Assembly (NCBI GenBank): GCA_013697245.1
Contig: JACCXH010000067.1
Location: 62,001 to 126,000, forward strand
Direction: 5' to 3'
DNA from: Bacteroidota bacterium
GTDB taxonomy: Bacteria > Bacteroidota > Bacteroidia > B-17B0 > Aurantibacillaceae
Length of the DNA stretch: 64,000 bases
Within the stretch, counting starts at the first letter, position 1. Each line of letters opens with the position of its first letter. This document shows, one piece after another, positions 20,942 through 26,604 of this stretch. A program made the translations under genes and the position numbers. The notes below the pieces were generated by a model that saw nothing but the letters and a program-made list of their open reading frames with translations, made no database searches and was not told where the DNA came from.

Positions 20942-22438
20942 ATGAAAAAACTATTTTTATTATTTGTATTAGTTATTTTTGTTTTTAATTGCTCAAGCCA
21001 ATCTTTCTCAATTAACCATGTGGAGAGTGCAAATAAAAGCTCTTTTCAGGCCATAACTGAGCAAGGTGTTATAAAGGGTTATTTTCTAATTTTTTACCTG
21101 GATCGTTATACTGAAACATCAAATTTATTAAGTTTAGAACTTTATGATCAAAATCTTAAACAAACCCATTCAATTGAATTGGTGAGAGATAAAAATGAAC
21201 AATTAATTGATGGCGTATTTAATGGAGAGAAGTTTTGCTTTTCGTTTTATAATCTCAAGGCAAAATATATAGATTACCTTATACTTGATAAGCAAGGCGA
21301 AATATCGGGGAGTTACCCGGTAAATAATCTTACTGATCTTGAAATTCAATATTTTATTTTATTAACTTCAACGAAAAGTGATTATTACAGCGGGCTTTTG
21401 GCGCCGATAGAAAAAAAAGGGTTTATACGTTGTGGTATTAAAGCAAATCAAGGGGATGTCTTCGGGATACAAAAGGATATGCGTATTCAACTGGAAGCTT
21501 TTTCAAACGACGGTGAACTACTTTGGAAAAAAACAACCGGCATTGAGGGGAAAAAGATTTGGGAAAGCACAAATTATTTATTTTCAAACGAAAAGTATAT
21601 TGTAACATCAATCACATATAGAAATGGGATTATGTCCAAAAATTTTAAAAACTATCTTATGTTTTTAGATGCAACAACAGGCAATGAACTTTTTAGAATG
21701 GAAGCCAATGTAAAAAATAATTATTTTTCCTATAACGGTATTAATTATGATGAAAATTTAGGAGAGCTTTTTTGTTACGGTGAATATTATGACAAGGAAG
21801 CAGGTGTTAAAAATAAAAGTATTGGATTGTTCATTAAAATAATTGATGCGGCAACAGGCAGCATTAAACAGGAAAAATATATTTCGTTTGAAAAGGACAT
21901 AAAATCCCTAATAGAGAAAAAAAGTAATGTGGGAAAAATCGCTGACAGAAACATGGCTATTCATAAAATATTGAGAGCTGAGGATGGAAGAATATTTGCT
22001 ATTACTGAACAATTTGCAAATAATGATAGTACAAAAACTCTTTTTTTATACGATCTGATCACTTTTGAATTTTCTAAAGAACTTGTTTTAATTGATGCGC
22101 AAATCGTGAATAAAATAACTGATACCCATACAAAATCGGAATTTAATACAAATGTAACTGCTAGTATAAATAAATTTACCAATGGGTTTGATTATTGTTT
22201 AACTTCAATAAATTCAAATAAAAATTTTACGTGTATTTATAAAACTACAGAGAAAAATAAATCCTACTTAGGCAGTTTTACGTATAAAAATAAAAGTTTT
22301 AATTATGATAAAATTCTTCGCACAGAAAATCCAATAATCTATACAGTTTTACCCGGGAAAGTAGGCTACATAGCCATTTACGAGTATTATGACCTTGAAA
22401 AAAGGATCAGGCTTAGGATTGAAAAATTGAATATTTAA
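20942..22438 (+). CDS. Secreted protein of unknown function
   Basis: About 498 residues from the ATG at 20942, which opens a signal peptide (MKKLFLLFVLVIFVFNCSSQ). C17 lies in FNCSSQ; a lipoprotein cleavage there is possible but the box is poor. The rest is beta-rich with alternating hydrophobic residues (LLSLELYDQNLKQTHSIEL, GRIFAITEQFANNDSTKTLFLYDL), suggesting a propeller-like fold, but I identify no family. It lies 1 base after the M48 peptidase, so it is probably co-expressed and may be a partner or substrate of it (inference). Confidence 0.7.
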   Translation: MKKLFLLFVLVIFVFNCSSQSFSINHVESANKSSFQAITEQGVIKGYFLIFYLDRYTETSNLLSLELYDQNLKQTHSIELVRDKNEQLIDGVFNGEKFCFSFYNLKAKYIDYLILDKQGEISGSYPVNNLTDLEIQYFILLTSTKSDYYSGLLAPIEKKGFIRCGIKANQGDVFGIQKDMRIQLEAFSNDGELLWKKTTGIEGKKIWESTNYLFSNEKYIVTSITYRNGIMSKNFKNYLMFLDATTGNELFRMEANVKNNYFSYNGINYDENLGELFCYGEYYDKEAGVKNKSIGLFIKIIDAATGSIKQEKYISFEKDIKSLIEKKSNVGKIADRNMAIHKILRAEDGRIFAITEQFANNDSTKTLFLYDLITFEFSKELVLIDAQIVNKITDTHTKSEFNTNVTASINKFTNGFDYCLTSINSNKNFTCIYKTTEKNKSYLGSFTYKNKSFNYDKILRTENPIIYTVLPGKVGYIAIYEYYDLEKRIRLRIEKLNI

Positions 22439-22460
22439 ATCAGGATGTTGCCTAGATATC

Positions 22461-22490
22461 TTGGCAAAACCCTCTAAAGTCTTATCTTTG
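22461..22490 (+). promoter_or_regulatory. Promoter of leuS (TTG-N19-TATCTTTG)
   Basis: TTG at 22461-22463 and TATCTTTG at 22483-22490 are separated by 19 bases, the textbook Bacteroidota sigma-A promoter spacing. It leaves a leader of about 25 bases before the leuS ATG. This is the clearest promoter in the window. Confidence 0.8.
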
Positions 22491-22520
22491 TAACCTACTT
22501 ATAACGTACTTTTAATTAAC

Positions 22521-25500
22521 ATGGAATATAATTTTACCGAGATAGAAAAAAAATGGCAGGCACGTTGGGCAAAAGAAAAACCTTTTAAGGCTTCCGATGA
22601 TTCTACAAAACCAAAATATTATGTGTTAGATATGTTCCCGTATCCATCGGGTGCCGGCTTACACGTAGGCCATCCGCTCGGTTATATTGCTTCTGATATT
22701 ATGGCACGTTACAAACGCCACAAAGGTTTTAATGTTTTGCATCCAATGGGTTACGATAGTTTCGGTTTGCCTGCAGAACAATATGCAATTCAAACAGGAC
22801 AACATCCAAAAATTACAACAGAACAAAACATTGCACGTTACCGCGAGCAAATGGATAAGATCGGTTTTAGTTTTGACTGGGATCGCGAAGTGAGAACCTC
22901 CGATCCTGAATATTATAAATGGACGCAGTGGATCTTTATTCAAATATTTAATTCGTGGTACAACAACAATTCTAATAAAGCAGAGGATATTTCTACATTA
23001 ATAAAAGAGCTCGAAACAAATGGCAATTCAAAAGTAAATGCTGTTTGTGATGATGATACCAAACAATTTTCTGCAGCAGACTGGAAAGGTTTTTCTGAAA
23101 AAGAAAGATCAGATATGTTAATGCATTATCGCATTGCCTATTTAGGAGAAGCATATGTTAACTGGTGTCCTGCATTGGGAACTGTGTTAGCAAACGACGA
23201 GGTAAAAGATGGTGTGAGCGAACGCGGCGGACATCCAGTTGAACGTAAATTAATGAAACAATGGAGCATGCGCATTACCGCTTATGCTCAGCGTTTGTTG
23301 GATGGATTGGACACTTTAGACTGGACAGAAAGTTTAAAAGAATCGCAACGCTATTGGATCGGTCGTTCTGAAGGAACTTCTCTTAAATTCAAGATCCACG
23401 GATCGTTAAGTCATCCTGAAGTAGATCCAAAATTAAATGAGATAGAAGTATTCACTACTCGTCCCGATACTGTTTTTGGTGTTTCATTTGTTACGCTTGC
23501 TCCCGAACATGATCTTGTACATAAAGTTACAACGGCCGCACAACTTGCATTGGTAGAAGAATATGTTTACGTTTCTAAAAATAGAAGTGAGCGCGAAAGA
23601 CAAGCAGACGTTACAAAAATTTCGGGAGTGTTTACAGGCTCTTATGTAGAACATCCTTTTACCGGAAAACAAATTCCAATTTGGGTGGGCGATTATGTAT
23701 TGGCGGGTTATGGTACCGGTGCTGTAATGGCTGTACCGGCGCATGATGAACGCGATCATAAATTCGCGAAACATTTTGGTTTGCCGTTACCGCAAGTAAT
23801 TACGCCAACTAAAGAACACGATCTTGATAAAGAAGCTTGGGGCGAAAAAGAAGGAACATTAATTAATTCTGATTTTTTAAATGGACTGGAAGTAAAAGCA
23901 GCTATTAAAAAAGCAATAGAAGAAATTGAAAAGAAAAAAATAGGTAAGAAAAAAATTAACTTCCGTTTACGTGATGCCGTTTTTGGCCGTCAACGTTATT
24001 GGGGAGAACCAATTCCTATTTATTATAAGAATGATATTCCTTACGCTTTAAAAGATTCTGAATTACCTTTAGTATTACCCGAAGTAGATAAATATTTACC
24101 AACCGAAGACGGTGAGCCACCTTTGGCGCGTGCGAAAGATTGGAAGTACAGGCCCAAGCCCCTCTCTAACTCTCCCCAAGTGGGAGAGGATAGAACAAAA
24201 CCTCGTTGGCAAACAGCCGCAAATTCTGGCTGGCAAGAAATGAAAGAGCGTGCTAAAGAATTACGAAATAATCAAACGGATGCTGAAGTTGCATTATGGC
24301 AACAAATTAAAAATAATCAATTAGGTTATAAATTCAGAAGGCAACAAGTGATTGGATTTAACATTGCTGATTTTGTGTGTTTAGATAAAAAATTAATTAT
24401 TGAAGTAGATGGTGAAATTCATAATTTTCAAAAAGAATATGATGATGCAAGAACTTTAGAACTTGAAAAAGAAGGTTATAAAGTTATTCGCTTTGAAAAC
24501 AAACGGGTTTTTTCTGACATTGATAATGTTGTTGCGGAAATTAGGCAGCAACTGCAAGTCCTCCCCAATGGGGAGGATTTAGGAGGAGCCGAATACGACT
24601 ACGAACTTAGTACCATGCCCGGTTGGGCAGGAAGCAGCTGGTATTTTTTACGTTATATGGATGCGCATAACGGTTCTGAATTTGCATCTAAAAAATTAAT
24701 GAATTACTGGAATAACGTTGACCTGTATATTGGCGGCAGCGAACATGCTACCGGACATTTATTATATGTCCGCTTCTGGACAAAATTCTTAAAAGATCTT
24801 GGTTATATTAATATTGAAGAGCCTGCTCAGAAATTAATTAACCAGGGGATGATACAAGGCAGAAGTAATTTGGTTTATAGAATTGTTCTTACTTTTAATA
24901 ATTCAAAACATTCCGATCTTGGTTTGTATTTTCAAAATAATCCTATTTTTATCTCAAAAGAATTTATTACAAATGATCTTTCTCTCACTGAAGAAGGGAA
25001 AAATATTTTAGAAAAAGAAATAAACCAAGTTTTTGAAAAATTAATCTCACCAATTGGGGAAGAAATCTTAAACATGGATTATTCTTATGGTATAATTGCA
25101 TTACATGTCGATGTAAATATTGTACAAAACGATATTTTAAATATTGAATCTTTCAAAAAATGGCAACGTGAGCTTCAAAATTCAATCATACTTTCAGAAG
25201 ACAATAAATGTTATTGCGGTGTTATCGATGCTGAAAAAATGTCTAAATCAAAATTCAATGTTGTTTCTCCAGATCTAATTTGCGAAAAATTTGGCGCTGA
25301 TACTTTACGTTTATACGAAATGTTCTTAGGTCCTTTAGAACAAAGTAAACCATGGAATACGAATGGCATTACCGGTGTTGCCGGATTTTTGAAAAAGCTT
25401 TGGCGTTTAGGCATACAGGTTATTGAAACTGAGAAAGCCTCCACCCTTGGGGGAGGTTTGGAGGGGGCTTCAAAAGCAGAATTAAAAACCTTGCACAAGA

Positions 25501-25934
25501 CCATTAAAAAAATCACAGAAGATATTGAGCGTTTTTCTTTTAATACCTCCGTAAGTAATTTTATGATCTGCGTTAATGAATTAACAGAAGCAAAATGTAA
25601 TAAGCGCGCTATACTTGAACCATTATTAATTTGTCTTTCGCCTTACGCACCGCACATTACCGAAGAACTTTGGGAAAAATTAGGTCACAGCGGAAGCATT
25701 GCCCTTGCCCCTTTCCCGATGCATAACGAAGAATATTTAGTAGATGATAGTTTTAATTATCCTATTTCTTTTAATGGTAAAATGCGCTTGAACATTGAGC
25801 TACCAGCTACTTTAACCGCTCCTGAAATTGAAAAAGAAGTAATGAGCCGCGAAGAAGTACAAAAATATTTGGAAGGCAAAACGCCAAAGAAAATTATTGT
25901 TGTGCCTAAGAAGATCGTAAATATTGTTATATAA
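22521..25934 (+). CDS. leuS: Leucine--tRNA ligase with an in-frame DUF559 endonuclease insertion
   Basis: A class I synthetase charging tRNA-Leu. HIGH motif is HVGHPLGY (48-55), the CP1 editing domain has [10 protein letters not shown] and [21 protein letters not shown] is at 906-910, and the C-terminal anticodon domain is present. Length is 1137 residues, clearly longer than ordinary family members. About residues 544-691 are an extra block between LARAKDWKY and the catalytic-domain segment [16 protein letters not shown]. This block is a DUF559/Vsr-like nuclease domain bounded by inverted repeats. A second short foreign segment (residues 972-984) is encoded by a solo repeat. A region at about residues 785-855 ([11 protein letters not shown] to ILNMDYSYG) also looks longer than I expect. 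There are no stops or frameshifts, so the enzyme is presumably functional, as leuS is essential. Confidence 0.93.
24156..24587 (+). mobile_element. DUF559 nuclease cassette flanked by inverted palindromic repeats, inside leuS
   Basis: The left end (24156-24189) contains CTCTCCCC...GGGAGAGG with an outer AAGCCCCTCTCTAA. The right end (24555-24587) contains CCTCCCC-AAT-GGGGAGG with an outer TTTAGGAGGAG. Read as reverse complements the two ends are the same motif, so they form inverted terminal repeats. Between them, residues 571-678 show the DUF559 pattern: [32 protein letters not shown]617 in NIADF, E628 and D630 in LIIEVDG, H634, and GYKVIRFEN. These are the PD-(D/E)xK-type catalytic positions and all are kept. 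The whole unit of about 432 bp stays in the leuS frame. That it moved as a unit is inference. Confidence 0.72.
25434..25471 (+). repeat. Solo GC-rich palindromic repeat inside leuS
   Basis: CCTCCACCCTTGGGGGAGG forms a hairpin, followed by TTTGGAGGGGGCTTC. It is the same motif and orientation as the right end of the DUF559 cassette. It is translated in frame as [13 protein letters not shown] (residues 972-984), between the catalytic core and the anticodon-binding helices. Confidence 0.7.
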
Positions 25935-25965
25935 CAAAGCAAATTAAGGATATGAAAAAATTAAG

Positions 25966-25973
25966 TATCTTTA
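25966..25973 (+). promoter_or_regulatory. -7-like box TATCTTTA directly before a GTG start
   Basis: One base differs from TAnnTTTG. It ends 4 bases before the GTG at 25978. The same AAGTATCTTTAAT string occurs before the gene at 45935. Confidence 0.4.
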
Positions 25974-25977
25974 ATTA

Positions 25978-26604
25978 GTGATAAAATTTTTATTTTATAT
26001 TTCTCTCTTATTGATTTTGCTTTCTTTGCTTGTGTTCTGCCAAAGACGCACTTTTGTACACGTTAAAATCAAAGGTGTCTTGATAGATTATTTCGCAAAT
26101 CAACCTATCATGGCAGAACTGCAACTACAAACGGATAATCCATCATTATTTAATAAATCTGGTGTTTTAAAAAAAATTGAAACTAAAAATGATGGAAGTT
26201 TTGATCTAAAGAGTAGAGCTATTTGGAAAAAAGAATACTATTTAGGCTTTATTGCTAAAGATAGTTCAATTTCTGGTTTTGTTTTTGGGGGCAAAATTGA
26301 GAATAATTCAACTGTAGAATTAGGAACGATTTACCCTGAGCATCGATTTAATTGTTTATTAACTTTAAACTCTATTTCCAGCAACACGCTCCATATTTCT
26401 AATTATTCAAACAACTATATCTATTACCCAGGAACAAATAAGACAATAACGCACTCTACTTTTTATTCTAAAGATGTTTTTGAATCACAAAACCACAATT
26501 ATATAATTAACTATTCAATAGATAGCGCCTTTGCTTCATATTATAGATCTTTAAAAATTCCAATAATTAATAATTCAAATTTAACTGCCACACTAAATTT
26601 TTAG
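25978..26604 (+). CDS. Secreted or lipoprotein-like protein of unknown function
   Basis: A 208-residue protein starting with GTG at 25978; no ATG occurs in frame before residue 44, and the GTG is needed for the hydrophobic leader (MIKFLFYISLLLILLSLLVFCQRR). The Cys after the leader could be lipidated, although Phe at -1 is atypical. The body (VHVKIKGVLIDYFANQPIMAELQL ... NDGSFDLKSRAIWKKEYYLGF) resembles a carboxypeptidase-regulatory or transthyretin-like beta sandwich, the kind often seen in Bacteroidota surface proteins; I hold this loosely. It lies 43 bases after leuS but has its own -7-like box. Confidence 0.6.
   Translation: MIKFLFYISLLLILLSLLVFCQRRTFVHVKIKGVLIDYFANQPIMAELQLQTDNPSLFNKSGVLKKIETKNDGSFDLKSRAIWKKEYYLGFIAKDSSISGFVFGGKIENNSTVELGTIYPEHRFNCLLTLNSISSNTLHISNYSNNYIYYPGTNKTITHSTFYSKDVFESQNHNYIINYSIDSAFASYYRSLKIPIINNSNLTATLNF

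Follow-up and report, generated by a model that had tools for sequence, protein, structure and literature searches.

An in-frame DUF559 nuclease cassette with palindromic ends in leucyl-tRNA synthetase, a probable mobile element of Bacteroidota

A leucyl-tRNA synthetase (LeuRS) gene of a Bacteroidota bacterium was found to contain an in-frame cassette that encodes a DUF559 nuclease domain between inverted hairpin repeats. The gene lies in a 64,000-nucleotide stretch of contig JACCXH010000067.1 (positions 62,001 to 126,000), which is referred to as the window. Sequence comparisons suggest that this is probably a mobile cassette, similar to a homing endonuclease gene, that has REP-like ends and is kept in the protein without splicing. 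With less assurance, we lean towards regarding it as a member of a new mobile-element class that is widespread in Bacteroidota, in which REP-like palindromes would be mobilised by an EDxHD-like DUF559 nuclease; the autonomous form would reside unspliced in essential proteins, home into empty alleles and leave in-frame hairpin scars. A cassette family that extends across species and many housekeeping proteins has apparently been undescribed so far, and no description of an in-frame DUF559 hairpin cassette was found in the open-access literature searched, including the available parts of PMC3733652, PMC3943268 and PMC12907096.

The DUF559 cassette is in frame within the LeuRS gene

The host reading frame (22521-25934, forward strand) is uninterrupted by stops and encodes 1137 aa, which match TIGR00396 (leuS_bact) with 925.7 bits (cut-off 548.4). 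It is the sole frame in its own genome that exceeds the LeuRS cut-off. Alignment with empty relatives placed the entire cassette at 24150-24590 on the forward strand (aa 544-690), in a loop designated site B after ...DWKY, with a right border that is ambiguous by one or two codons. The initial annotation had reported about 145 extra residues at 24156-24587; the insert comprises ~147 residues, is coding over its entire length and has slightly wider borders. The span from EPPLARA to TMPGWAG is ~159 residues in the window, versus 14-18 in LeuRS of the same genus without DUF559 and 28 in two others of this kind (L005 and L011).

The nuclease domain occupies aa 573-679 (24237-24557, forward strand; PF04480, E 2.3e-34). 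PF04480 scores of 118-123 bits, against the curated Pfam cut-off of 20.6, assign it to DUF559, and D617, E628, D630 and H634 are intact, as the initial annotation had recognised. Hairpin search and arm alignment defined the two ends. The left arm (24150-24188, forward strand) consists of a pyrimidine-rich tail and the hairpin CTCTCCCCAAGTGGGAGAG (24170-24188), and none of 100 shuffles gave such a hairpin. The right arm (24556-24590, reverse strand) consists of a hairpin (24559-24577) and a tail, is an inverted copy of the left-arm motif, and is a member of the CCTAAATCC-hairpin-GGACTT family. The view that both borders are inverted copies of one GC-rich hairpin motif thus holds for orientation and motif but not for identity, since the left arm aligned imperfectly with the reverse-complemented right arm (34 columns, score 16). 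A full-length LeuRS model (22 sequences) had a pLDDT of 72, with linkers 547-566 and 680-689 below 50.

An assembly chimera was judged unlikely because a 96%-identical DUF559 is present at the same LeuRS site in another genome of the genus (G053, locus L125). Cassettes are also present in the single-contig genomes G346 and G170 and in named isolates.

The layout of an in-frame insert with a homing-type nuclease is that of an intein, and removal of the insert from the protein or the mRNA would spare the host. Such intein- or intron-like removal is nevertheless very improbable. No intein family was among the Pfam and NCBIfam matches (E 0.001), the cassette ends are repeat-encoded, variable peptides, and hairpin-only and scar loops likewise remain in frame. 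By eye, the border residues of the window's cassette differ from those that we take to be the intein splice residues. The region 22400-26000 had no Rfam match at E up to 1, and the insert is coding throughout, which argues against an intron.

Filled, empty and scarred LeuRS loops in relatives

The LeuRS alignment contained 66 sequences, namely the window, 35 with DUF559 and 30 presumed empty, among which L008 duplicates the filled L038. It was revealed that DUF559 occupies two LeuRS loops. Site A precedes VFTTRPDT in the editing domain, and site B is the loop filled in the window. Twenty LeuRS of the same genus had DUF559 at neither loop, which supplies the empty sites that the initial annotation had proposed to seek by alignment; near relatives do not all carry the block without repeat ends, the pattern it had named as speaking against its reading. 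The window-type cassette is also present at site B in G053 (L125) and G047 (L054), and another cassette type is present at site A in G007, G008, G011 and G046. Hairpin-derived residues alone were detected at site B in L120 (three tandem units), L029 and L122 and at site A in L054. Site B of L033, L005 and L011 has a different palindrome.

A second intact LeuRS copy was rejected, since in all 15 genomes tested, two of which are single-contig, no frame other than the interrupted LeuRS exceeded the TIGR00396 cut-off among the matches listed (the G011 gene is split across two contigs in this count).

A contig of a MAG named Candidatus Paceibacterota (L161:4221-6866) encodes a LeuRS of 882 aa (TIGR00396, 856 bits) whose site-A position is occupied by a DUF559 cassette; spread to another phylum and a mis-binned contig are both possible.

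Genomes and host genes carrying the cassette

Within the full list of 40 genomes of the window's genus, 24 had at least one DUF559 match; of the 30 matches in total, 9 were within frames longer than 1000 aa. A class-wide sample gave matches in 182 of 395 genomes, the best-scoring matches being listed, and the loci fetched comprised the in-frame matches and a high-scoring sample of free ones. The in-frame hosts (88 frames of at least 300 aa) formed 24 clusters, the largest of which were LeuRS (35), MetH (11), acetyl-CoA synthetase (7), IleRS (4) and RecG (4). The hosts in related genomes include LeuRS (two loops), MetH (two sites), acetyl-CoA synthetase, IleRS, MetRS and RecG, as well as RecJ, RecQ, MutS, TsaD and others. 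A Pfam scan of 20 cluster members assigned a host family to 19, the other (L053) giving nuclease models only, and the remaining clusters were named by eye. Some in-frame members are weak, such as L047, which adjoins a run of N, L123, which has a short frame, and a HisF pair, which is an N-terminal fusion.

Named genomes gave 569 relatives. Among the best 80 of these, at least five of which duplicate sequences already in the set, 64 were within longer frames or at a contig edge and 33 had the BLAST label LeuRS. NCBIfam reassigned one sequence so labelled (L232) to MetRS and added RecQ, IspF, guanylate kinase, WecB and PaaZ as hosts among these 80. LeuRS cassettes are also carried by cultured species, among them Hyunsoonleella ulvae, Cellulophaga baltica, Nonlabens antarcticus and Gillisia mitskevichiae. 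A phage origin was considered and rejected, as just 3 of 50,697 phage records matched the DUF559 domain, all at less than 60% identity.

In fused methylmalonyl-CoA mutase, DUF559 was observed at two positions, 774-884 or 807-917 (L086 and L091) versus 533-646 (L110), and the L110 domain belongs to a different DUF559 branch from the other two. DUF559 domains of other branches are also in frame within restriction-modification-type proteins (L113 and L117), the ends of which carry a different repeat containing gtgtccgaaggacgg.

Lineage, fold and selection of the nuclease

The residues D617, E628, D630 and H634 did not vary among the copies compared, 89 of 89 in-frame and 34 of 34 free (L133, also free, was excluded). 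A tree of 124 DUF559 domains, built on a short alignment and with 41 of 121 inner branches open, recovered one clade (100/96) of 78 of the 89 in-frame copies plus one free copy, the other 11 in-frame copies being outside it. The host gene switches repeatedly within this main clade; the window copy, together with its two relatives from the genus, groups (100/94) with one LeuRS-B copy and one acetyl-CoA synthetase copy from other families. The initial annotation had suggested a search for free DUF559 genes flanked by the same repeats. Free genes between hairpins do exist, but the sole other DUF559 gene of the window's own genome (L002, G000:C41:128936-129250) is free-standing and belongs to a different DUF559 branch. 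This gene adjoins hairpins of another sequence type.

A model of the DUF559 domain (pLDDT 89.5) matched 3hrl (E 6.5e-9), the homing endonuclease I-Bth0305I (3r3p; Foldseek E 6e-4) and, weakly, Vsr (E 0.06), and phmmer also related the domain to I-Bth0305I (E 5e-4). The window and L125 gave dN/dS values of 0.023/0.711 (0.03) for the cassette and 0.146/1.064 for the host. Among the pairs listed, for which dS was often saturated, cassette omega was at most 0.25 save for 0.27 and 0.36, and L080/L085 gave 0.43 with linkers counted. These substitution patterns indicate that the cassette nuclease is under purifying selection.

Such strong selection would also be expected if the domain had been domesticated, that is, if DUF559 were mobile in origin only and now useful to the host protein or cell, for example in DNA repair or anti-phage defence. 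Some lineages do keep the cassette at one site, such as the five LeuRS-A copies of the f3 family. An intact catalytic state is, however, also expected of a selfish nuclease, the functions of the hosts are unrelated, and PADLOC gave no defence match for the window's DUF559 domain, although the free copy in the same genome had weak ones. Together with the fast gain, loss, decay and replacement of cassettes at one site within one genus, which is described below, these points make domestication rather improbable.

Gain, loss and transfer of cassettes

The turnover of cassettes was followed at MetH site 1 in one genus of 36 genomes. The 30 usable loci comprised 9 full, 1 internally deleted (L253), 3 hairpin-only (L270, L267 and L072) and 17 empty alleles, the empty class including loops with possible tail remnants, e.g. 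L263; L265 was dropped because it is cut by a contig end, and no locus was fetched from the remaining genomes. On a MetH tree computed without the site, the full state needs 8 changes, at least 5 of them forced by well-supported branches, versus 7.9 for shuffled labels. The allele states are unclustered on the host tree. The sisters L246 and L248, whose hosts differ by a dS of 0.23, have different cassettes (dN 0.40, dS 1.5). In the same genus, acetyl-CoA synthetase has a full cassette in 4 genomes; 23 loci were read as lacking it, with a scar-like loop in L280, and L294, L301 and L302 were not read by motif. The proposal that an essential host protects the cassette from deletion is therefore only partly right, because in-frame deletion remnants exist in both LeuRS and MetH.

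Some same-site pairs have cassettes much more similar than their hosts. The cassette dS was 0.09 versus 1.33 for the host in the LeuRS pair L193/L198, and 0.35 versus 1.38 in the RecJ pair L040/L082. The DNA identity of L193 and L198 is 95-100% in the cassette and falls off on both sides, but identity of 92-95% recurs elsewhere in the gene, so the raised identity of the flanks is not unique. Two paralogous SpoIIE-domain genes in G031 have cassettes that are 94% identical over 471 bp, whereas identity over the aligned proteins, cassette included, is 58%; one of them, L043, starts at a contig edge. For many same-site pairs, including the window and L125 (0.71 versus 1.06), the cassette dS is near or above the host dS, as vertical descent or an old replacement would give. 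Patchy presence together with same-site horizontal transfer was found for the MetH, LeuRS-A and RecJ sites. The window's own site has just three same-genus copies, a cassette dS close to that of the host and no transfer signal.

These comparisons demonstrate, at the level of sequence, that cassettes of some pairs have evidently passed horizontally to the same site between species, from which we infer that the cassette is mobile between species. Empty sites, many unrelated hosts, turnover and some horizontal pairs together support the initial proposal that a nuclease gene with repeat ends invaded an essential gene in frame. A homing-type passenger that remains in the protein, as the initial annotation read it, would fit best. 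Since the L193/L198 gradient is not unique and the window's site is without transfer, the likelihood of this explanation and of the new class is slightly reduced. Flank conservation was moderate or average (83rd and 88th percentiles at the LeuRS sites, 47th at MetH) and gives no support for a homing target. No target-site duplication was seen by eye at the LeuRS, MetH and acetyl-CoA synthetase junctions.

Hairpin ends and dispersed repeats

Of the in-frame DUF559 copies, 50 of 86 had hairpins within 200 bp on both sides, as had 25 of 35 free copies; copies too close to a contig end or a run of N were dropped. The corresponding controls gave 3/516 and 1/210 for shifted positions and 0/258 and 0/105 for shuffled sequences. 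When the left arm was aligned with the reversed right arm of the same element, the mean score was 20.1 (86). Pairing with arms from other elements gave 15.7 within the same host cluster (66; p 1.3e-4) and 12.5 between clusters (278; p 7e-19), and shuffled arms scored 9.5. The arms of L066 form a 42-bp perfect inverted repeat. The exact hairpin pattern was present on at least one side of 35 of 88 in-frame and 6 of 35 free copies, and a looser pattern on at least one side of 69 and 11, respectively; the low counts among the free copies indicate that other hairpin types are frequent there. Tandem free DUF559 genes with hairpins between and around them were observed in L127 and L139.

The pattern CCCYCYCCN3-4GGRGRGGG was found in 23 of 24 cassette genomes, at 2-111 places each, the exception being G170 with none. 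It was found in 3 of 20 genomes without PF04480, at one place each, and the reversed control gave 0 of 44. The association of the hairpin with cassette genomes (Fisher p 2.7e-8) is inflated by genome choice, kinship and the cassettes' own arms. In the window's own genome, the initial hairpin pattern gave 5 matches, 3 of which are arms of the cassette itself, and its control gave 2. The CCTAAATCC-hairpin-GGACTT family occurs there at 9 places, one of which is the window's right arm, with none in the reversed control. One of the 7 places of CCCYCYCCN3-4GGRGRGGG in this genome is a lone hairpin in frame within coproporphyrinogen III oxidase (HemF; L324, G000:C5:33716-33734). In G102 the same pattern occurs at 57 places, and the hairpins of the 20 stretches fetched were all outside long frames. 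Six of these stretches (L304-L308 and L315) have inverted hairpin pairs 60-67 bp apart, which look like REPIN-type miniature elements. The pairs in L304-L306 and L308 have matching outer tails like CCTCACCCC / GGGGTGAGG.

The abundance of hairpins bears on the main rival to a nuclease-driven cassette, in which RAYT (Y1) transposases or inter-repeat recombination move the REP-type repeats and DUF559 rides along as a passenger. Hairpin places far outnumber DUF559 genes, as in G102, and RAYTs are the proposed movers of REPs according to the available part of PMC3733652. Of the 24 cassette genomes, 23 had a PF01797 (Y1/RAYT-like) match, as did 11 of the 20 genomes lacking cassettes (34 of 44 overall), and these genes could act in trans. 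However, the cassette hairpin was present at none of 37 RAYT-like genes in its exact form and at none of 35 under the looser pattern (40 loci were fetched, of which 37 were examinable), and G170 has a LeuRS cassette but no PF01797 match. The strong selection and the invariant catalytic residues are also unexpected in a mere passenger. We thus consider this rival unlikely, albeit the chief one. Among the RAYT-like genes in L351-L389, 18 of 37 are between their own, different palindromes on both sides.

Discussion

We favour the explanation that the DUF559 nuclease itself spreads the cassette. The nuclease would be produced as part of the host protein and may cut cassette-free alleles or hairpin-bearing DNA, and recombination repair would then copy the cassette into the cut allele. 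Rare events could seed new genes, the survivors being in-frame insertions in tolerant loops. Because the cassette reads through in frame, it is able to occupy a loop of an essential protein. It would not splice itself out, and the host would tolerate the insert as a permanent extra domain on flexible linkers. Lone hairpins and inverted pairs may be non-autonomous derivatives, analogous to the REPs and REPINs of RAYT elements.

The cassette shares features with several known systems. It has a nuclease fold and sequence similarity in common with the EDxHD homing endonuclease I-Bth0305I, and, like homing endonuclease genes, it is patchily distributed over fixed sites, has passed to the same site in some pairs and undergoes a cycle of decay. 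I-Bth0305I comes from a mobile intron, according to the title of its record, whereas the cassette nuclease forms an in-frame domain bounded by hairpins, with no splicing element found. Inteins with homing endonucleases likewise place a nuclease in frame in conserved, often essential proteins, but in the cassette no splicing (Hint) domain was found, the ends are repeat-encoded and variable, and hairpin-only remnants persist in frame. The structured RNA of group I and II introns was not recognised, the insert region having no Rfam match.

REPtrons (REP/REPIN/RAYT elements), as presented in the available part of PMC3733652, have short palindromes, dispersed solo and as inverted pairs, that flank a nuclease gene. 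The cassette hairpins are dispersed in both forms, but the gene between the arms is DUF559 and not an HUH/Y1 transposase. The sampled RAYT-like genes in cassette genomes bear other hairpins, and autonomous copies of the cassette are in frame inside proteins. The same part of PMC3733652 describes Rickettsia palindromic elements (RPEs) as palindromic repeats in frame within functional proteins. By description, the lone HemF hairpin looks like these elements. To our knowledge, RPEs have no nuclease gene, whereas the cassette repeats flank one.

If this reading is true, a selfish nuclease can colonise conserved genes without splicing, a tolerated in-frame linker encoded by a hairpin being sufficient. 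A palindromic-repeat family of Bacteroidota would gain a nuclease partner, and there would be an explanation for the long inserts that many Bacteroidota have in LeuRS, MetH and other enzymes. The cassettes would also provide a natural catalogue of the places in essential enzymes that accept a domain of ~110 residues.
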